Shown here in pieces: positions 20,602 to 48,965 of a stretch of 64,000 bases of DNA. Positions within the stretch are counted from its first letter, which is position 1. Every line of letters begins with the position of its first letter. The DNA lies in NCBI GenBank assembly GCA_014695325.1, contig JACJNZ010000039.1, positions 930,001 through 994,000 on the forward strand. The letters are read 5' to 3'. The translations under genes were made by a program, and so were the position numbers. Source of the DNA: Cyanobacteria bacterium FACHB-502. GTDB lineage: Bacteria > Cyanobacteriota > Cyanobacteriia > Elainellales > Elainellaceae. Under the pieces are notes generated by a model, which was not told the DNA's origin, searched no databases, and worked only from the letters and a program-made list of their open reading frames with translations.

Positions 20602-23600
20602 ATGACCACCGCTTCTCGCACCCCCAATTCCGATACCCTCGATCTCCAGCAGCTCCTCAAAACGCTGGTTGAAATAAAAAAGGGTAATTTCTCTGCTCGG
20701 ATGCCACTCGACCAGACCGGTATTGCAGGCAAGATCGCCGATACGCTCAACGACATCATTGAGATGAATGAGCACATGGCAACTGAACTGGAACACATTA
20801 GCCAGGTGGTTGGTAAGGAAGGCAAAATTAGCGAACGCGCCTCGCTCCAGAATGCGAAGGGAGCATGGAAGGCATCGATCGGCTCGGTCAATGCGCTGAT
20901 CACTGATCTGGTGCAGCCGATGACTGAAACCACGCGAGTAATTCGGGCGGTTGCCACTGGAAACTTGACGCAGACAATCGCCACCGAAATTGACGGCAAA
21001 CGGCTGCAAGGCGAGTTTCTGCAAACGGCTCAAATCGTCAACACGATGGTGGATCAGCTCAACTCCTTTGCTTCAGAAGTAACACGGGTGGCGCGGGAAG
21101 TAGGAACTGAAGGAAAACTCGGCGTGCAGGCAGATGTGCCCGGAGTAGCGGGAACCTGGAAGGATTTGACCGACAGCGTAAACTCGATGGCAGGCAACCT
21201 GACCGCACAGGTACGAAACATTGCTGAAGTAACAACGGCGGTGGCAAACGGAGACCTCTCTAAGAAAATCACCGTGGATGTGAAAGGCGAAATCCTGGAG
21301 CTGAAAAACACCATTAACACCATGGTGGATCAGCTCAACTCGTTTGCTTCAGAAGTAACACGGGTAGCGCGGGAAGTAGGAACTGAAGGAAAACTCGGGG
21401 TACAGGCAGATGTACGCGGAGTAGCGGGAACCTGGAAGGATTTGACCGACAGCGTAAACTCGATGGCAGGTAACCTGACCGCACAGGTACGAAACATTGC
21501 TGAAGTGACAACGGCGGTGGCAAATGGGGATTTGTCGAAGAAAATCACTGTAGATGTGAAAGGCGAAATCCTGGAGCTGAAAAATACGGTCAACACGATG
21601 GTGGATCAGCTCAACTCGTTTGCTTCAGAAGTAACACGGGTGGCGCGGGAAGTCGGAGCAGAAGGAAAACTGGGCGGACAGGCGCAAGTTCGCGGAGTAG
21701 CCGGAACCTGGAAAGACCTGACCGACAGCGTGAACTTCATGGCAGGCAGCTTAACCGCACAGGTACGAAACATCGCCGAAGTAACAACGGCGGTGGCAAA
21801 CGGAGACCTCTCCAAGAAAATCACCGTGAACGTGAAAGGTGAAATCTTGGAGCTGAAAAACACCATTAACATCATGGTGGATCAGCTCAACTCGTTTGTG
21901 TCTGAAGTGACGCGAGTGGCGCGGGAAGTGGGAACCGAAGGAAAGCTTGGCGTGCAGGCGCAAGTTCGCGGAGTAGCCGGAACCTGGAAAGACCTGACCG
22001 ACAGCGTGAACTTCATGGCAGGCAACCTGACCGCACAGGTACGAAACATTGCTGAAGTGACAACGGCGGTGGCAAATGGGGATTTGTCGAAGAAAATCAC
22101 CGTGGATGTGAAAGGCGAAATCCTGGAGCTGAAAAACACCATTAACACCATGGTGGATCAGCTTAGTTCCTTTGCCTCGGAAGTAACACGGGTGGCGCGG
22201 GAAGTGGGTTCTGAAGGAAAACTCGGGGTACAGGCAGATGTACGCGGAGTAGCCGGAACCTGGAAAGACCTGACCGACAGCGTGAACTTCATGGCAGGCA
22301 GCTTAACCGCACAGGTACGAAATATTGCGGCGGTAACAACGGCGGTGGCAAATGGGGATTTGTCGAAGAAAATTACCGTGGATGTGAAAGGCGAAATCCT
22401 GGAGCTGAAAAATACGGTCAACACGATGGTGGATCAGCTCAACTCGTTTGCTTCAGAAGTAACACGGGTGGCACGGGAAGTGGGTTCTGAAGGAAAACTC
22501 GGCGTGCAGGCGGAAGTAAAAGGCGTAGCCGGAACCTGGAAAGACCTGACCGACAGCGTGAACTTCATGGCAGGCAGCTTAACCGCACAGGTACGAAACA
22601 TCGCCGAAGTGACAACGGCGGTGGCAAACGGAGACCTCTCCAAGAAAATCACCGTGGATGTGAAAGGCGAAATCTTGGAGCTGAAAAACACCATTAACAC
22701 CATGGTGGATCAGCTCAACTCGTTTGCCTCGGAAGTAACACGGGTGGCACGGGAAGTGGGAACCGAAGGAAAACTCGGGGTGCAGGCATACGTCCGCGGC
22801 GTGGGTGGAACCTGGAAGGATTTGACTGATAACGTGAACTCAATGGCAGGCAACCTGACCGCACAGGTACGAAACATCGCCGAAGTGGCAACGGCGATCG
22901 CGAACGGGGACCTCTCCAAGAAAATCACCGTGGATGTGAAAGGTGAAATTCTCGATCTGAAAAACACCATTAACACCATGGTGGATCAGCTCAGTTCCTT
23001 TGCCTCGGAAGTAACACGGGTGGCACGGGAAGTAGGAACCGAAGGCAAGCTGGGCGGTCAGGCGCAGGTGATTGGCGTTGCAGGAACCTGGAAGGATCTC
23101 ACTGACAATGTGAACTCGATGGCAAGCAACCTTACAGCCCAGGTGCGAGGCATTGCGCGAGTGGTGACAGCGGTGGCGAACGGAAACCTGAAGCTCAAGC
23201 TGATGCTAGATGCCAAAGGCGAAATCGAAACGTTAGCCGACACTATCAACGAAATGATTGACACGCTGGCAACGTTTGCCGAACAGGTTACGACCGTTGC
23301 CCGAGAAGTAGGAAGCGAAGGAAAACTCGGTGGACAGGCAAAAGTGCCGGGAGCATCGGGAACTTGGCGCGATTTGACCGATAACGTGAACGAGCTGGCA
23401 GCGAATCTAACGACGCAGGTGCGAGCGATCGCCGAAGTAGCAACAGCGGTGACTAAGGGCGATTTGACGCGATCGATTTCCGTCGAAGCAAAAGGGGAAG
23501 TGGCAGTCCTCAAAGACAACATCAACCAGATGATTGCCAACCTGCGCGAAACAACGCAGAAGAACACCGAGCAAGACTGGCTCAAGACCAACTTGGCGAA

Positions 23601-26433
23601 ATTCACCCGTATGTTGCAGGGGCAGCGCGACCTTGAAACAGTGTCCAAGCTGATTCTGTCCGAATTGGCTCCGCTGGTTTCGGCGCAACACGGGGTCTTT
23701 TACCTGATGGAAGCCAACGAAACCCACACGTCCTATCTCAAGCTGATCAGCACCTACGCCTACAAAGAGCGCAAGCACTTAGGCAACCGCTTCGAGCTAG
23801 GACAGGGACTAATCGGGCAGTGCGCTTTAGAAAAGGAGCGCATTCTCCTGACTGAAGTTCCAGCAGACTACATCAGAATTAGTTCTGGACTGGGTGAAGC
23901 AACCCCGCTGAATGCGGTTGCGCTGCCTGTTTTATTTGAAGGACAGGTGACTGCGGTGATCGAGCTTGCTTCGTTCTCGCGGTTCAGCGACATTCACTTA
24001 ACGTTCTTCGACCAGTTGACCGAGAGTATTGCGATCGTCCTCAACACGATTGCCGCTAGTATGCGAACTGAAGAACTGCTGAAACAGTCGCAGTCACTGG
24101 CAGAAGAACTGCAAACCCAGCAGAAAGAGCTAACGGGAACCAACCAGCGATTAGAGCAGCAGGCGCAGTCACTCAAAGCCTCGGAGGAACTGCTCAAGAA
24201 TCAGCAGGAACAGCTTCAGCAAACCAACGAGGAATTACAGGAGAAAGCCGAACTATTAGCCGTTCAAAACCGGGAGGTGGAACGCAAAAATCAAGAAATT
24301 GAACAGGCGCGTCGATCGCTGGAAGAAAAAGCCGAACAGCTTGCCCTCAGTTCCAGATACAAATCGGAATTCTTGGCAAATATGTCGCATGAACTGCGAA
24401 CGCCGCTCAACAGTTTACTGATTCTGGCACGACTTTTTGCCGAAAACAGCGACGGCAACTTAAGCGATAAGCAAATCGAATATGCCCGTACGATTTATTC
24501 TGCCGGAAACGATTTACTTGGACTCATCAACGACATTCTGGATTTGGCAAAAATTGAGTCGGGAACGATGTCAATCGAAACAGAGCCAATGTCGATTAAT
24601 GACTTCCGCAATCACCTCGATCGCACATTCCGCCAGGTCGCCCAGGATCGTAATCTCGAATTTCAGATGAACTTTGATCCGCAGTTGCCGCGCACTTTGT
24701 ACACCGATGCCAAGCGGCTTCAGCAAGTTCTAAAAAACCTGCTCTCGAACGCCTTTAAGTTCACCGAGCAGGGTCAGGTCAGCCTCAACGTAAGCCTCGC
24801 AACGGGGGGCTGGAGTTTTGATAAAGAAACGCTGAATCGTGCCGATCGCGTAATTGCCTTTGCGGTTACTGATACGGGAATCGGCATTGCGCCAGATAAG
24901 CAGCAGGTCATCTTCGAAGCGTTTCAGCAGGCAGATGGCACAACCTCCCGGAAGTATGGGGGAACGGGCTTAGGCTTGTCGATTAGCCGAGAAATTACCC
25001 GTCTACTAGGCGGTGAAATTCGCCTTAAGAGTGAGCTGGGTTGCGGCAGCACGTTCACGCTTTATCTGCCCCAAAGCGAGGGAGAACGCTGGAGTTTACC
25101 GATTCCTACCCTCGCTACCTCATCCTTGCAATCCACGATCGTCCGACCTTCCACGGTGCTAGCAGCAGGGCAACCAGCGACAGCAGGCAATCAGCCCGAA
25201 CCAATGGCACTGATGCGCGAGCGGGCGATCGAAGACGATCGAGACTCTATTCAACCGGGCGACCTGACCTTGTTGATCGTTGAAGATGACCTGAACTTTG
25301 CCGGCATTCTGCTAGATCTGGCACGACAGCAAGGCTTTAAGGGACTGGTCGCCACTCGCGGTAACGTCGGGCTGGAAATGGCACAGCAGCTCAAACCCAC
25401 CGCAATTATGCTCGATGTTCGCCTTCCGGTTCTCGATGGCTGGATGGTGCTGGATCGGCTGAAGCATCACGCTGACACCCGCCATATTCCAGTCCACATG
25501 ATGTCGGTAGAAGAGGGATTGCAGCGCAGTTTGCGGCAGGGAGCAATCGCGTATCTGCAAAAGCCTGTTAACAGCGAGTCATTGCTCAACGCCCTGGCAA
25601 GCATTAAGGAGTTTGTCGAGCGTCCGATGAAAAATTTGCTGATCGTCGAAGATGATGACGTTCAACGCCAAAGCCTGGTTGAACTGATTGGCAATAGCGA
25701 CGTAGCAATTACCGCGATCGGCACAGGTGCAGAAGCGCTTGAGACATTGCGATCAGGTCACTTTGACTGCCTCGTGCTCGATCTGGGACTACCCGACATG
25801 GATGGGTTTGCCTTCCTTGAGCAGATTAAACATGACTCCAGCCTGGCCCACTTGCCGATCATTATCTACACCGGAAAAGATCTATCGGCTCAAGAAGAAC
25901 GGGAACTCCGAGGCATTTCTGACACGATCATTCTTAAGGATGTCCGATCGCCCGAACGTCTGCTGGATGAAACTGCCCTCTTCCTGCATCGGGTTCAGGC
26001 AGACCTACCAGACCTTCAGCGACAAATGCTGGAACGATCGCAGCAGCAAGATCCAACGCTGGCAGGCAAAAAAATTCTCATTGTCGATGATGACGTGCGG
26101 AATATTTTTGCCCTCACCAGTGTATTAGAACGCTATCAAATGGAGATTCTGTACGCTGAAAACGGTCGAGAAGGCATTAGCGTATTACAAAATCACCCGG
26201 ATCTTGATTTGGTGTTGATGGATGTGATGATGCCCGAAATGGATGGGTATGAAACGACGCAAGCCATTCGGGAAATTCCCCAATTCGCTCATCTGCCTAT
26301 CATTGCGTTAACGGCAAAAGCCATGCGCGGCGATCGGGAAAAATGCATCGAATCGGGAGCTTCGGACTACATCACTAAACCTGTTGAAACCGATCAGCTC
26401 TTGTCTGTACTTCGGGTTTGGCTCCACCAATAA
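20602..26433 (+). CDS. Poly-HAMP hybrid histidine kinase with three receiver domains
   Basis: A 1943-residue soluble sensor kinase with no signal peptide or membrane segment. Residues about 10-1000 are roughly eleven HAMP units of 92 residues, recognised by the recurring G-(D/N)-L motif followed by K-G-E-(I/V)-x-x-L-K-x-x-(I/V)-N. Units three to nine are nearly identical and the outer ones diverged. Then come a GAF domain (about 1009-1160), a Gln/Glu-rich coiled coil (about 1165-1255), a HisKA domain with phospho-acceptor His1263 (SHELRTP), an ATPase domain with DTGIGI and GGTGLGLSI, and three receivers with phospho-acceptors Asp1605, Asp1727 and Asp1874. The poly-HAMP part closely resembles group III fungal hybrid kinases (Nik1/Os-1), which sense osmotic stress. 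Signal and output are unknown. A CheR-like gene follows after 25 bases. Confidence 0.95.
21046..23253 (+). repeat. Eight tandem 276-bp coding repeats (HAMP units)
   Basis: The word atggtggatcagct, or a close variant of it, recurs at 21046, 21322, 21598, 21874, 22150, 22426, 22702 and 22978, exactly 276 bases apart. Each unit encodes 92 residues (one HAMP plus linker). Diverged units continue in register at 23254 and 23530. The copies share long identical DNA blocks but swap short variants (GVQADVRG or [15 protein letters not shown] or NFMAGSL) in a mosaic order, the pattern expected from unequal crossing-over and gene conversion. Confidence 0.95.
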
Positions 26434-43434: not shown

Positions 43435-45318
43435 ATGACTTCCGCATCAGAGCAGTATCGGGAAATCGTTCGGCACTATGCTCCTAACGGGCTAATCTCG
43501 CCTGATGTCCGGCAAATTCTAGAGCGACAACAACGTTATCTAAAGCTATTAAGCCAGGAAGCTGAGGCGATCGAGCGATCGGTTTTACAGTTAGACTTTC
43601 AGGCGGATTCACAGACAGATTTGCAGGCGAATTCAAACTCGGATTCACAGGCGGATTTCCAGACGAGCTTTCAGAAGGACTTGCAGACAAGTTCACCGTT
43701 AGATTCACAAACGGATTTACCGTTAGATTTGCAGACGGATTCGCAGACGGATTCGCAGACGGATTCGCAGACAGATTCACTATTAGATTCACAGTCTGCC
43801 CAACAGCCCGATCCCAGCCCAGTTTTGCTTGCTGAACACAACCTCGATCAAGCGACCCATCAAAACAGCCCAGTTGCACCTACTCTAGAAAATTTGGCAG
43901 CACCCGCGAACGCTAGTCCTTCAGAGACTCACACTGCGCCAGAACCAGAGCCAGCAGCGGTCACGCCTGAGGAGCTGTCCAATCCAGAAGCCATTTCTCG
44001 TTATCAAGCTGCTTTTGCCCAGGCAATTCGGTTTCAGTTTCCGCTGAACGAAGTGCTGAAGTTAGGCTTGCGATCGTTGCAGCAAACGCTAAATCTGACC
44101 GATCAGCATATAGAGGCGATCGAAATTCGCAGCCTTGAGGCACTGGACGCAGAGCAGCAGCAGTACAAAGCAAACCTTGAGAAATATCGAGAAGAGTTTG
44201 AGGGTTCGAGAGCTTTTTTATATAGCGAGTCAGTGCAGGATGAGCTGTGGGAGCTTCAGCGCAAGCTCAAACTTCGGAGTGAAGATGTGCTGAGGCTAGA
44301 ACGGGAAGTCATGCAGGACGCAAGGCGCGATAGCCATCATGAGGCTTTTCCGCCGATCGAAGATTCCTTTGCCTCGGCAGGCATTCAGGCTCTCGAAGAC
44401 AAAATTAAAGATGAATTGTTTAACCCCACAAATTCTGAACCCGGTCATAGCACGTCTCGCCCCTTAGTTTCAACCGCTCACCTGAAGCCCGAAACGCGAG
44501 TGACCGAAGAAGCGGATGTCCTTTTCGCTGATAGTTCGTTGAATCAATCTCAACCTGGGTCCAAGGTCAGCGCAAATGCGAATGCTAAACCGAATACCCA
44601 GGAGAAAAATTCAGGCTCTCAGGAAGGTTCTACAGTTGGTTCTACAATTATCGTTCAATCGGAGCTGGAGCAAGCTTTTCAGGAATTAGAAAAGCATTTA
44701 GGCAAGGAAGGACAGCGCGACTGGTGGGAAGCAGACCAGATAACCTTCGAGATTTTGCTCAAGCTTTCCCCCAATCCCTCCCTGAACTGGCTCAATATGC
44801 AGGCGATCGAAACAATAACGCAGAACGATGCCCTGGAGCGAATCGATCGCCTATGGAGTGTTGCAAGCGAAGGCAGATACGGCTTATTCGCTCAGCAAGA
44901 GGTCTATAAGAAAGTGATCAAAGACCTGCAAGACGAGCATCAAAGCAAGCTGAAAGGCGATCGCTTACAGCAGCTTTATATCCAGGAATTTGTACGACGA
45001 ATTGGTTGGTGGGATAATCGGCTGCAATTTCTCAAGTTTTACAAATGGCTCGATTTCCATACAGATCTGGCAAGCCGTCCTGATATTCCGGCGGGGCAGT
45101 TTCCGGCTTACTGGTTCTGGGTAATTCCGCGTCCATACGCCTTTCAGCTTGGTGGCATCGGGTTCGGACAGGGAGGCTGGCGCGTTGATGTGTCGCGCTT
45201 ACGGGCATGGATGACCCGGCTGAGAAACTGCAAGCTAGAGCCGTATGAAAAATATGTTGCTTCTCCGTCCCAAAAACCTACGGCGAACTCATCGTTTGAG
45301 GATCTGCCGGACCTGTGA
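43435..45318 (+). CDS. GUN4-domain protein with a long repetitive N-terminal region
   Basis: A 627-residue soluble protein. Residues 53-121 are a low-complexity tract of about seventeen four-residue units of the type Q-T-D-S. Residues 180-310 are Gln/Glu-rich with coiled-coil character. The C-terminal part (about 409-610) matches GUN4: DWWEADQITFEILLKL, ALERIDRLWSVASEGRYGLFAQQEVY and FVRRIGWWDN, followed by a WLDFHTDLASRP segment. GUN4 proper binds protoporphyrin and stimulates Mg-chelatase; proteins with a divergent GUN4 module and added regions are common in cyanobacteria and their role is unclear. The 3' end overlaps the convergent LCP gene by 41 bases. Confidence 0.82.
   Translation: MTSASEQYREIVRHYAPNGLISPDVRQILERQQRYLKLLSQEAEAIERSVLQLDFQADSQTDLQANSNSDSQADFQTSFQKDLQTSSPLDSQTDLPLDLQTDSQTDSQTDSQTDSLLDSQSAQQPDPSPVLLAEHNLDQATHQNSPVAPTLENLAAPANASPSETHTAPEPEPAAVTPEELSNPEAISRYQAAFAQAIRFQFPLNEVLKLGLRSLQQTLNLTDQHIEAIEIRSLEALDAEQQQYKANLEKYREEFEGSRAFLYSESVQDELWELQRKLKLRSEDVLRLEREVMQDARRDSHHEAFPPIEDSFASAGIQALEDKIKDELFNPTNSEPGHSTSRPLVSTAHLKPETRVTEEADVLFADSSLNQSQPGSKVSANANAKPNTQEKNSGSQEGSTVGSTIIVQSELEQAFQELEKHLGKEGQRDWWEADQITFEILLKLSPNPSLNWLNMQAIETITQNDALERIDRLWSVASEGRYGLFAQQEVYKKVIKDLQDEHQSKLKGDRLQQLYIQEFVRRIGWWDNRLQFLKFYKWLDFHTDLASRPDIPAGQFPAYWFWVIPRPYAFQLGGIGFGQGGWRVDVSRLRAWMTRLRNCKLEPYEKYVASPSQKPTANSSFEDLPDL
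43591..43797 (+). repeat. Degenerate 12-bp coding minisatellite (QTDS repeat)
   Basis: About seventeen in-frame 12-base units. The core gat-tcg-cag-acg is repeated almost perfectly three to four times near 43730-43780; units on either side have diverged (cag-gcg-gat-tca, ccg-tta-gat-tca). It encodes the N-terminal low-complexity tract of the GUN4-domain protein. Unit gain or loss keeps the frame. Confidence 0.85.
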
Positions 45319-47047
45319 GACTTGAGGGGGAAGGGTTGACCGCCGGATCAGGAATGGTTTTCGGTTCCAGCGTGGGATCGGCAACCAGGGCAGGAGTAGG
45401 CTGAAACACATCCGTTCCCAGTCGAATCGTCACATCGGAATCTAGATCTCCGGTACTTTCGACCAGCACCTCCCCAAAGCCCAGACTTTGCCGGACTGCC
45501 TCAGCACTGGCAACATCGCCCCCCTGCGCCACAATTTGAGTTATCGTCAAGGGTTCGTTCCAGGGCTGATCAAGGTAGACATTCGCATAGCCGCCCGTTT
45601 TTAGCGTGGTCATGAGCTGATCGATTGCCCGATCGTTTCCGGTGCTGTTTTGTACCACAATCTGGGCAGTGGTCGGCGTGTGGGCAATGGTGCTGCTGGC
45701 AGCAGGGAGACCAAAATACTGCTGCATCATTTGAGCAATCTTGGCTTGGCTGGGCAGCCAGTAGCTCGCCTCAAACTCAGCACTGGAGCTAAAGCCACCC
45801 GGCAGCATCAGCATTTTCACGTTTGGACGATTTGTTTGAGCTGTGAATCCTGCCAGAGCAACCAGTTCTTCAACGTTTAGATTAGTATCCAGATTCGATT
45901 GAATCACGGAAAGCACCTGCGGCATTTTGGCAAGCGTGACAGGTTTAATCGCCTGTTCTACCAGTGCTCGCAGAAACATTTGCTGTCGCTGCACCCGCCC
46001 AATATCACCAAACTGGTCGTAGCGAAACCGGAGAAACTGAACTGCCTGATTACCGTTTAACCGCTGCTCACCCTGCTTGAGATTGATATAAAGATGCTGT
46101 GAATCGTCTTTGTACGACATATCCTGCGGCACGTTGATCTTTACACCGCCCAGTGCATCGATCAGTTTTTCAACCCCCTGCACGTTGATTCGCACATAGC
46201 GATCGATTTTGACGCCGCCCAGCAAGTCTGTCACCGATCGGGCAGCAAGTGCCGGACCGCCGTAAACATTGGCTTCATTGAGCTTGGTTAAGCCTGCACC
46301 ATCGATCCACGTGCGAGTGTCACGCGGCAGAGAAAGCACTGTAAGCTGATGAGTCTGAGGATCAAACCGCACCAGCAGCATCGAGTCTGATAAGCCATCC
46401 AACGAGTTCACGACGGCGTGATACCGCAAATCGCGCACCTCAGGCGGCGGATCCGAGATCTCGGAAGACAGCACCTTAATCCCCAGCACCAGCACAGTCA
46501 CCGGACGGGTCAACTGCGGTAACTGCAAATTCGTCCCGCTGGCGATCGGCTCATCCTGATTAAACGCTTTTGCGTCTTCCGCACTGAGCTTACTCTGCAT
46601 CAGCGGTGTGCCAGAAATTGCTACTGCCAGCAGCGCACCCGCCGAAGCCGAAACTGCCGCCACCACCGTCAGCCCCACCGTCAACCCCAGCCAACGCCAT
46701 TTGCCCGACCCGAAGCCGTTTTTCTTCGGCAATTCCTCTGCTGAAGCTGGCTCAACTCTCTCCGAAGTCTCTGCCCCCGGACTGGTTGCCGAATTTGCAG
46801 CGATCGGGTTCACACAGACCGGATTAGTATTCATCGAATCTAAATGATCCTCTAAATGATCCGCCTTGTCCGACTTAGCACCCATCTGATTGGAGGCAGC
46901 AGGAGTTGAAGCCACAGACGAACCACGAGACTGTTTTTGATTCTGGAAATCAGCGGGCAGAGAATCAGGTGAATTGCCAGCAGCGTTGGCAGCAGAATTA
47001 TTCAGCGACAGGAAGTTTTTCACACTCAGCAACTTTTCAATCAGCAC
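45278..47047 (-). CDS. LytR-CpsA-Psr (LCP) family protein with LytR_C domain
   Basis: A 589-residue cell-envelope protein. A disordered 117-residue cytoplasmic N-terminus leads to a membrane helix (about 118-145). The LCP domain (about 180-375) has catalytic-site residues in the expected places: SDSMLLVRFDP (Asp221), LSLPRDTRTWI (Arg242, Asp243) and LRFRYDQFGDIGRVQRQQ. A LytR_C domain follows (about 465-550) and then a Pro-rich tail. LCP enzymes transfer lipid-linked glycopolymers to peptidoglycan. The unusually long N-terminus is Ser/Asn/Ala-rich. Its last 13 codons overlap the convergent GUN4-domain gene. Confidence 0.92.
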   Translation of the reverse strand: MLIEKLLSVKNFLSLNNSAANAAGNSPDSLPADFQNQKQSRGSSVASTPAASNQMGAKSDKADHLEDHLDSMNTNPVCVNPIAANSATSPGAETSERVEPASAEELPKKNGFGSGKWRWLGLTVGLTVVAAVSASAGALLAVAISGTPLMQSKLSAEDAKAFNQDEPIASGTNLQLPQLTRPVTVLVLGIKVLSSEISDPPPEVRDLRYHAVVNSLDGLSDSMLLVRFDPQTHQLTVLSLPRDTRTWIDGAGLTKLNEANVYGGPALAARSVTDLLGGVKIDRYVRINVQGVEKLIDALGGVKINVPQDMSYKDDSQHLYINLKQGEQRLNGNQAVQFLRFRYDQFGDIGRVQRQQMFLRALVEQAIKPVTLAKMPQVLSVIQSNLDTNLNVEELVALAGFTAQTNRPNVKMLMLPGGFSSSAEFEASYWLPSQAKIAQMMQQYFGLPAASSTIAHTPTTAQIVVQNSTGNDRAIDQLMTTLKTGGYANVYLDQPWNEPLTITQIVAQGGDVASAEAVRQSLGFGEVLVESTGDLDSDVTIRLGTDVFQPTPALVADPTLEPKTIPDPAVNPSPSSLTGPADPQTMSSP

Positions 47048-47169: not shown

Positions 47170-47520
47170 TCAATTCCTTCTCAGCAAATCGAGCGGCTGC
47201 CGTCGCCAGAGCCGAACCATCAGCCAAAGATTGGTCAAGAAATAGCCCGAAGTTAGCAGGCTTGCCAGGATCAGCAAAGGCACGATCGCCGCCTGATGAG
47301 TCTGCACTCCCACTTGCAACAGCAAATTTCCTACTAGCCAGCCCAGCGCGAGTTTTACGGCAAGTTGACTGGTCTGACGCTGTTCCCTTGTGCCGTTTCT
47401 GCAATAGAGCGTCCAGAGTGCCGGGAAAAAACCAACGATCGGAACGAGGCAGAGAAACATTTGCAGACGTTGAAGGTTTGCCTCACCGTAACGATCGTTC
47501 TCCATCCTGATTTCTCCCAT
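47170..47520 (-). CDS. Small membrane protein, unknown function
   Basis: A 116-residue protein beginning MGEIRMENDRYG, with three to four hydrophobic segments, starting LQMFLCLVPIVGFFPALWTLY. Resembles uncharacterised cyanobacterial membrane proteins. The frame is open to 47601, but that would overlap the serpin gene; ATG 47520 (or 47505) is preferred. It follows the serpin gene on the same strand after 14 bases, so the two likely form an operon. Confidence 0.65.
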   Translation of the reverse strand: MGEIRMENDRYGEANLQRLQMFLCLVPIVGFFPALWTLYCRNGTREQRQTSQLAVKLALGWLVGNLLLQVGVQTHQAAIVPLLILASLLTSGYFLTNLWLMVRLWRRQPLDLLRRN

Positions 47521-47534
47521 TTGATTACTTTTGC

Positions 47535-48800
47535 TTAGGTTAATGACTGAATCGTGCCGATAAATAGAATCGTGCCCGTTTGCTCGTCCCAGATTGCACA
47601 AAGGAAAGGACGATCGATCGTCATTTGAAAGGGCGGCTGGGGTAAAGCAGCACGAACGGCAACGGCAACTGAGGTAGCAGCAGCGGCTTCGGTTCCTTCT
47701 TCGTTCACTTCCAGCAGGGTTTTGTGCTGCACATCGCTAATATAGGCAGGCAAAGAACTCATTTCACCAAAATTGGCTTGCCGATCGTCAAACACGAGTT
47801 CCATACCAATCGCCTTCAGAGACTCGACCAAACTCGTGCCATATTCCACCTTAAAGCGCGGAAGCTGTACTGTACCAGGACGCGAAGAAAATTGATTCAT
47901 CCAGGTTTCCCAGTGGCTATGGCTCAAGCTTTGGGTCAATTGGTTCAGGCTGCTGGTCGGTTTCGGCAAAAAAATTGCCATCTGCCAGCGTTCGTTGCCG
48001 TAGGGTAGCCGCACTGCCTGAAACTGCTCAGTTTCTAGATAGTGAAACTTTCCCCGCTTTGTCATTAAAGGCTGCGTGATCGTCGTGCCGTCTCCCTGGT
48101 GAAAAGGGCGATCGAGCGTTTCATCAGGATTAAATGGATTTGTCCATTTGCCTTTGAAATAAATTGCGTTAATCAAAAACAAAATATCGTTGGGATTCAT
48201 TTGATTCAAAATCTTGTCGATCTTGCCTTGCGTCTGCTGATTCACCCAGTGATTAATGCGATCGATTGCACCCGGATCATTAAAGTTCAGATCCGTAACT
48301 TCTGCACCATAAAATTCCTGATTGCGCTTCAGAAACACCGGATTGAAATTGATGCCCGATCGTCCCCAGAGGGAATTTGCCACTGTTAGCTGCACTGCCG
48401 GGTCAGAACTTGTCCAGGCTTCCAGCAAGGCACGGTTTGCCTGATTAATTTCCGCTAGACTCATGCCCTGCATTTCCAGCGCGTTTTGCATGGCTTCCTG
48501 AGTCGCTGCACTTGCGCCGTTGTAAGTCATGCTGAGGGCGATCGATACGCTGCTCGGCGAAATCAAAACATTCTCACCCTGGTTTTGCTCTAGCAACTGG
48601 GCAAACAGCTTGAAACCAAAGCGCGTATTCGCTGCGACAAATGCTGGATCCACCGTCGAAGTTTGCATCGATGAAGGGGAGGGAGAAGGTGGCTGAGCCG
48701 TTGCCTGCTGTGGAATCTGTACTGCCCAATCGCCCACGATGCCAAGCAGTATAGTGCTAATCACAATGACCATCAGCCGTTGCGTTACAGAATAAAGCAT
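47535..48800 (-). CDS. Secreted serpin with predicted P1 arginine
   Basis: A 421-residue serine-protease inhibitor of the serpin family with an N-terminal hydrophobic signal (about 8-30). FGFKLFAQLL, NVLISPSSVSIALSMTYNGA, NAIYFKGKW and the final DRPFLCAIWDEQTGTILFIG are family hallmarks. The reactive-centre hinge EEGTEAAAATS has the small residues needed for loop insertion, so the protein should be inhibitory. Counting from the P17 Glu puts Arg383 at P1, predicting a trypsin-like target. Serpins act by irreversible trapping. In cyanobacteria they are sporadic, and the target, inside or outside the cell, is unknown. The neighbouring genes give no clue. Confidence 0.93.
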   Translation of the reverse strand: MLYSVTQRLMVIVISTILLGIVGDWAVQIPQQATAQPPSPSPSSMQTSTVDPAFVAANTRFGFKLFAQLLEQNQGENVLISPSSVSIALSMTYNGASAATQEAMQNALEMQGMSLAEINQANRALLEAWTSSDPAVQLTVANSLWGRSGINFNPVFLKRNQEFYGAEVTDLNFNDPGAIDRINHWVNQQTQGKIDKILNQMNPNDILFLINAIYFKGKWTNPFNPDETLDRPFHQGDGTTITQPLMTKRGKFHYLETEQFQAVRLPYGNERWQMAIFLPKPTSSLNQLTQSLSHSHWETWMNQFSSRPGTVQLPRFKVEYGTSLVESLKAIGMELVFDDRQANFGEMSSLPAYISDVQHKTLLEVNEEGTEAAAATSVAVAVRAALPQPPFQMTIDRPFLCAIWDEQTGTILFIGTIQSLT

Positions 48801-48846: not shown

Positions 48847-48888
48847 AAAGTGAGACCTGCAAAGTGAGACCCGCAAAGTGAGACTTGC
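48847..48888. repeat. 14-bp tandem repeat, three copies
   Basis: aaagtgagacctgc occurs three times with one or two changes. It lies between the divergent serpin and acetyltransferase genes and may fall in either leader. Confidence 0.85.
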
Positions 48889-48965
48889 AGGTAGAGACAC
48901 GGTACATTCGGGAAAGCTAGCCTCAGTCTCGTTTTCTTTCCTATCTTTTTCCGAGTTCCTACTTC

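Follow-up and report, generated by a model that had tools for sequence, protein, structure and literature searches.

Which kind of protease would a cyanobacterial serpin catch when its bait differs from that of most of its relatives? The question is raised by a minus-strand gene in a 64,000-nucleotide stretch of DNA from Cyanobacteria bacterium FACHB-502 (contig JACJNZ010000039.1, positions 930,001 to 994,000; hereafter the window, whose first letter is position 1 of all coordinates). The gene encodes a serpin with Arg383 at P1 and Ala384 at P1'. We consider it likely that the product is an exported, single-copy, inhibitory serpin whose Arg383-Ala384 bait has been re-aimed at Arg-specific proteases. 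Judged by its sequence, the protein is a true serpin, typical of bacteria and inhibitory in type; the more interesting point is its departure from a mostly conserved Thr-Ser bait. The features concerned are:

47535..48800, minus strand: serpin coding sequence, 421 amino acids (aa), open reading frame (ORF) with ATG start
48696..48800, minus strand: probable Sec signal peptide, residues 1-35, cut between ATA and Q, no lipobox Cys (by eye)
47670..47702, minus strand: inhibitory hinge EEGTEAAAATS, residues 367-377, P17-P7 (from the sequence)
47652..47654, minus strand: Arg383, the P1 residue, codon CGT (hinge count, ungapped chloropin alignment, codon)

The serpin and its reactive loop

An earlier note on this DNA had described the gene as a cyanobacterial serpin, and both the ORF and the Pfam search agree. 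The 421-aa protein matched Serpin (PF00079) from residue 57 to 417 and over profile positions 2-367 of 370. The score of 389.9 bits, where the curated cut-off is 27, excludes a chance match. Serpin was its sole Pfam match at E ≤ 0.001. No NCBIfam profile matched the protein, and frame 1 of the plus strand over 47535-48800 was interrupted by stops. A phmmer search of the PDB matched 204 distinct sequences, the best being miropin (5ncs; 4.2e-69); the consensus-designed conserpin was also at the top, and chloropin (8gxv) was eighth among the matches listed. One serpin only was found in the genome.

Structure modelling, which had been proposed as a check, gave a canonical serpin fold. The AlphaFold2 model, built from the window protein and 43 relatives, had a mean predicted local distance difference test (pLDDT) score of 86.4 and a predicted template modelling (pTM) score of 0.83. 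Values of pLDDT below 50 were confined to residues 1-20 and to the loop at 373-386, as is expected for an exposed, mobile loop. Foldseek returned 415 PDB matches at E ≤ 0.001, with native miropin first (5ncs; E 4.3e-41, template modelling score 0.81/0.90) and antithrombin next among the matches listed.

The hinge EEGTEAAAATS occupies residues 367-377, as had been claimed. The P17-P9 consensus of inhibitory serpins is given as ExGTEAAAA (PMC8233489), and EEGTEAAAA fits it. Counting from the hinge, Gly369 is P15, the P17-P1 span is 17 residues, and Arg383 falls at P1 with Ala384 at P1'. When the C-terminal 101 residues were compared with the PDB, chloropin 8gxv came first, and Arg383 paired without a gap with the Arg of the chloropin loop. 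A different P1 in an alignment had been named as a possible refutation; the chloropin alignment agrees with the hinge count, and the assignment of P1 to Arg383 is well supported by both comparisons. The earlier note had also counted a 16-residue stretch to the conserved RPF. This was a miscount: Arg383 is followed by 13 residues (384-396) before Arg397 of RPF is reached, a correction with no effect on the P1 assignment.

Export, suggested earlier from a signal peptide, is probable. The N-terminus, read by eye, is of the Sec type, with a hydrophobic stretch at about residues 9-29 followed by QQATA and a cut before QPP; two sister proteins (G411 and G388, described below) have EA before Q and LA before Q at the corresponding place. 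Of 98 relatives, 45 matched a loose lipobox pattern at the N-terminus, whereas neither the window protein nor its two sisters did; some of the 45 matches are probably due to chance, for example one lying 463 residues ahead of the domain.

P1 residue across related serpins

The alignment set comprised 98 distinct serpin ORFs of at least 300 aa from fetched loci of the window's phylum. Outside this set are the strong matches in G016, G029, G047, G320, G004:C43 and G172:C93, the second match of G018:C64, and all matches under about 32 bits. An alignment-based scan of named genomes yielded at least 586 relatives (among at least 594 stretches), and the best 80 of these supplied 79 further distinct proteins. 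A pattern scan of genome contigs made with a single protein returned nine stretches and no relatives.

By hinge count, P1 in the 98 ORFs was Thr in 59, Arg in nine, Ser in eight, Leu in six and another residue in 16. Among all 177 proteins the figures were Thr 116 and Arg 11; divided by origin, the 136 from the window's phylum had Thr 86 and Arg 10, and the remaining 41 had Thr 30 and Arg 1. A close set of 75 rows of the 98, all at least 42% identical to the window protein and with the window protein included, had Thr at P1 in 57, Arg, Leu and Ser in four each and others in six; P1' was Ser in 60 and Ala in nine. One protein, L009, has Arg at P1 by alignment column owing to a gap shift, which would raise the Arg count to five, but at P2 by hinge count; the hinge-count figures are used here. 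The cyanobacterial Thr-Ser serpins are 46-74% identical to the window protein (23 aligned proteins).

Hinge positions P17, P15, P14, P12 and P8 were identical in 73-75 of the 75 close relatives, with P16 and P9 variable. Column entropy in the same set placed P1 at the 44th percentile and P1' at the 36th, against the 76th to 98th for P3, P2 and P2'-P5', so that the scissile bond appears more conserved than its flanks. The P' columns are less certain, since loop length varies past P1.

A tree of the 177 proteins was computed with the loop columns removed. The window protein formed one clade with its two nearest relatives, G388 (58% identical) and, from the same genus, G411 (74% identical), with support of 99 and 96 in the Shimodaira-Hasegawa-like approximate likelihood ratio test (SH-aLRT), checked as bipartitions. 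All three members have Arg at P1 and Ala at P1', where the cyanobacterial subfamily mostly has Thr-Ser. P1 Arg is a trait of the window's lineage within a mostly conserved Thr-Ser subfamily. Elsewhere on the tree, five further Arg serpins (L011, L014, L035, L100 and L110) are distant from that of the window (145-265 bits). At least seven changes between Arg and other residues at P1 are needed on the 177-row tree; the simplest reading is that P1 Arg had several origins.

In some genomes of the phylum, serpin genes were in tandem or clustered (L081, L090, L106 and L107), two or three per fetched stretch, with differing P1 residues.

Mode of action and candidate targets

Serpins act in general as suicide substrates. 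In the case considered here, an Arg-preferring protease would attack the exposed loop between Arg383 and Ala384, the hinge with its small residues would insert into beta-sheet A, and the acyl-enzyme would be dragged to the far pole and trapped. The Arg-Ala bait would direct a conserved scaffold towards proteases of the trypsin-like kind (S1) or others specific for Arg, most likely in the periplasm or on the surface of the cell. Inhibition, Arg specificity and an envelope location are what we infer for this serpin. With Arg in the bait where most relatives have Thr, the proteases that it traps are probably of another type than those trapped by most cyanobacterial serpins.

The nearest precedent for the bait is chloropin, a serpin of Chlorobium limicola reported to have a signal peptide and to use Arg383 as P1, consistent with the released peptide's mass (PMC10090351). 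Like the window protein it is a bacterial serpin of the inhibitory type with P1 Arg at an equal distance from the hinge; it differs at P1', which is Ser in chloropin and Ala here. Complexes of chloropin with trypsin, thrombin, FXIa, KLK1, KLK7 and elastase have been reported (PMC10090351). The trypsin-like target predicted by the earlier note remains a reasonable first guess on the strength of the P1 Arg and of chloropin, with the addition that elastase-type enzymes are also possible.

DNA or heparin acceleration has been reported for chloropin (PMC10090351), and a similar cofactor was considered for the window protein but set aside. Residues 98-135, assigned to helix D by eye, carry a net charge of about -4 (the mature protein has an isoelectric point of 5.06); with this stretch acidic, acceleration of the chloropin type is not expected.

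Several observations weigh against a bait re-aimed at Arg-specific proteases. The tree was a quick one with SH-aLRT support only, the branches next to the Arg-Ala clade are mostly Thr with weak support (61-86), and the clade has three members only; a change from Thr to Arg, not the reverse, is the presumed direction in the window's lineage. Another Arg serpin, L102, belongs to an adjacent group with eight tips. The sequence AVAVRAAL, in which Arg383 is set, would also make good bait for elastase or subtilisin, and cleavage of the elastase type at the neighbouring Val382 or Ala381 is possible. Miropin reportedly uses different peptide bonds, to go by the title of its paper. Chloropin, itself with P1 Arg, likewise forms a complex with elastase (PMC10090351).

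From these points a broad, miropin-like trap may be imagined, in which several bonds of AVAVRAAL are used, Val382, Ala381 or Ala384 serving as P1 and Arg383 being one bait among them. The richness of the loop in Ala and Val and the behaviour of chloropin speak for it, as does the fact that miropin, from Tannerella forsythia, is the nearest solved relative in both full-length sequence and fold and shares the hinge EEGTEAAA. The loops themselves differ, miropin having VKTSS with Lys at P2 and Thr at P1 by hinge count, against V-R-A in the window protein. The greater conservation of P1 and P1' than of P3, P2 and P2'-P5' in the subfamily suggests one preferred bond, and we regard the broad trap as possible but doubtful. 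A non-inhibitory serpin or plain substrate with another role, such as storage or chaperoning, is very improbable, given an inhibitory-type hinge with five positions almost invariant in the close set.

The genome encodes candidate targets of more than one kind: 12 matches to the Trypsin family, five to the subtilase family and eight to C14. All three kinds are present in each of the three P1-Arg genomes. The window's order consists of one taxonomic family with 36 genomes, and Trypsin-family and C14 matches occur in 36 of 36, so that no protease family is singled out as the target; this too counts against the re-aimed bait. An explanation of P1 Arg by gene content was likewise discarded, as nothing separated the P1-Arg from the P1-Thr genomes when presence, not counts, was compared.

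In plants, P1-Arg serpins control metacaspases, and a bacterial counterpart could be directed at the cell's own Arg/Lys-specific orthocaspases (C14). The eight C14 matches would supply the target, and C14B enzymes are reported to cut after basic residues (PMC6426788). Against this, C14 occurs in every genome of the family, serpin or not, the serpin appears to be exported, and literature joining orthocaspase, arginine and serpin was found only for a green alga. We consider such a target quite unlikely, and an Arg-specific protease met outside the cytoplasm, trypsin-like as a first guess, is the preferred reading.

Gene neighbourhood and occurrence

Two genes follow the serpin on the same strand, and a short repeat lies on its other side:

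47170..47505, minus strand: small hydrophobic, probably membrane, protein of 111 aa (sequence; linkage within the family)
45278..47047, minus strand: LytR-CpsA-Psr (LCP) glycopolymer transferase (Pfam PF03816, 157.3 bits; LytR_C, 44.6 bits)
48847..48889, no strand: 3.1 tandem copies of the 14-bp repeat AAAGTGAGACCTGC in the serpin-acetyltransferase gap (Tandem Repeats Finder score 72)

The ATG of the small gene, preceded by GGAGAAATCAGG, lies 29 bp past the serpin stop; no Pfam family was over its cut-off in the 111-aa product. The serpin is perhaps co-produced with the small membrane protein and the LCP enzyme. Among the 23 genomes of the family with a full-length serpin, 16 carry the small gene on the serpin's strand, within 2 kb on its downstream side, with 12-276 bp between match ends, and many genomes with Thr-Ser serpins share a similar neighbourhood. 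LCP follows the small gene in 31 of the 33 family genomes that possess the latter. Beyond the family, in flanks reaching at most 3 kb, 14 of 80 named loci had the small gene and 15 had LCP, on the strand of the serpin; some of the loci with a like neighbourhood are Nostoc-like. In all five of these loci that were inspected, an oppositely oriented gene, which we take to encode an AI-2E-type transporter, stands between the serpin and the small gene.

Other counts speak against a fixed association. The serpin does not adjoin the small gene in seven of the 23 genomes, and 11 family genomes have the small gene without a full serpin, the small-LCP pair being kept in 10 of these (in one, G386, a serpin fragment lies beside the pair at a contig end). 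Phylum-wide, the small gene was present in three of 71 loci whose flanks did not exceed about 1.5 kb, that of the window included, and two family f6 loci (G125 and G340), with flanks of about 7 kb, had neither the small gene nor LCP. Within the family the linkage is thus real, but beyond it the association is patchy. None of nine other window genes was conserved beside the serpins of relatives, save for weak ABC and acetyltransferase matches (26-34%).

The linkage hints at an envelope role. Together with the lipobox-like motif in 45 of the 98 relatives, the LCP gene makes an envelope protein fit at least as well as the defence against external proteases that had been suggested earlier; such defence is one of several possible roles. 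Pressed further, this becomes a scheme of envelope homeostasis, in place of outward defence, where the mostly constant Thr-Ser bait marks one conserved endogenous envelope protease, regulated with the small protein and LCP, and the window's lineage has switched both bait and target. As the linkage is mostly not seen outside the family, we hold this scheme to be rather unlikely. If it were true, the close relatives with Thr-Ser and with Arg-Ala would represent a swap of specificity carried out by nature.

Chloropin and many other bacterial serpins are described as having unknown physiological targets (PMC10090351). Related serpins that differ at P1, often in a shared genomic context, offer a clean comparison of the proteases trapped, and the LCP neighbourhood points to the envelope as the place to look. 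In Nodularia spumigena the most up-regulated gene at lower salinity was annotated as a serpin (PMC5853447), an observation that opens a role in the envelope or in osmotic stress to testing, with no orthology to the window serpin implied.

It has been stated that cyanobacterial serpins are confined to rare families (PMC6718151), and the earlier note had called bacterial serpins sporadic. For the window's order the word sporadic is misleading: Serpin matches above the cut-off are present in 24 of its 36 genomes, that of the window included, although the match in G386 is a 25-position fragment at a contig end. Among 386 evenly sampled genomes of the phylum, 70 had a match over the cut-off and 116 at E ≤ 0.001. 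Most of the remaining 46 are weak C-terminal matches from family f31, a description that also fits G210, G269 and G279 among the 70. In the titles and opening abstract lines of the papers listed, with subscription papers mostly outside reach, we found two passing mentions of a cyanobacterial serpin and no study devoted to one; such work may nevertheless exist in print.

Some members of the phylum that have small genomes and do not belong to the window's class encode proteins of 343-370 aa in which the N-terminus is signal-like and Serpin matches the last quarter only (L219:345-1376, L222:375-1487 and L223:856-1908). The GTEAAA hinge was absent by eye. Families f31 and f40 contain more weak matches of this sort, and the three proteins may represent a diverged, non-inhibitory serpin-like family.

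Upstream of the serpin, across a 165-bp gap, lies a divergent HpsU-like acetyltransferase gene (NCBIfam HpsU). The 14-bp repeat in this gap occurs three times in the window against 0.07 expected and nowhere else at up to one mismatch; it is possibly regulatory or a strain-specific short repeat. Promoter-like sites near the gene (three, against 1.7 ± 1.4 in shuffles) and terminator-like sites (four, against 2.7 ± 1.8) were in little excess.

Two further proteins of the window have repetitive stretches. A 627-aa protein (43435-45318) contains, at about residues 55-120, a low-complexity stretch rich in repeats of Gln, Asp, Ser and Thr. A 1943-aa sensor kinase (20602-26433) has many near-identical tandem repeats, HAMP-like by eye, in its N-terminal half, followed by what appear by eye to be kinase-like and receiver-like parts.
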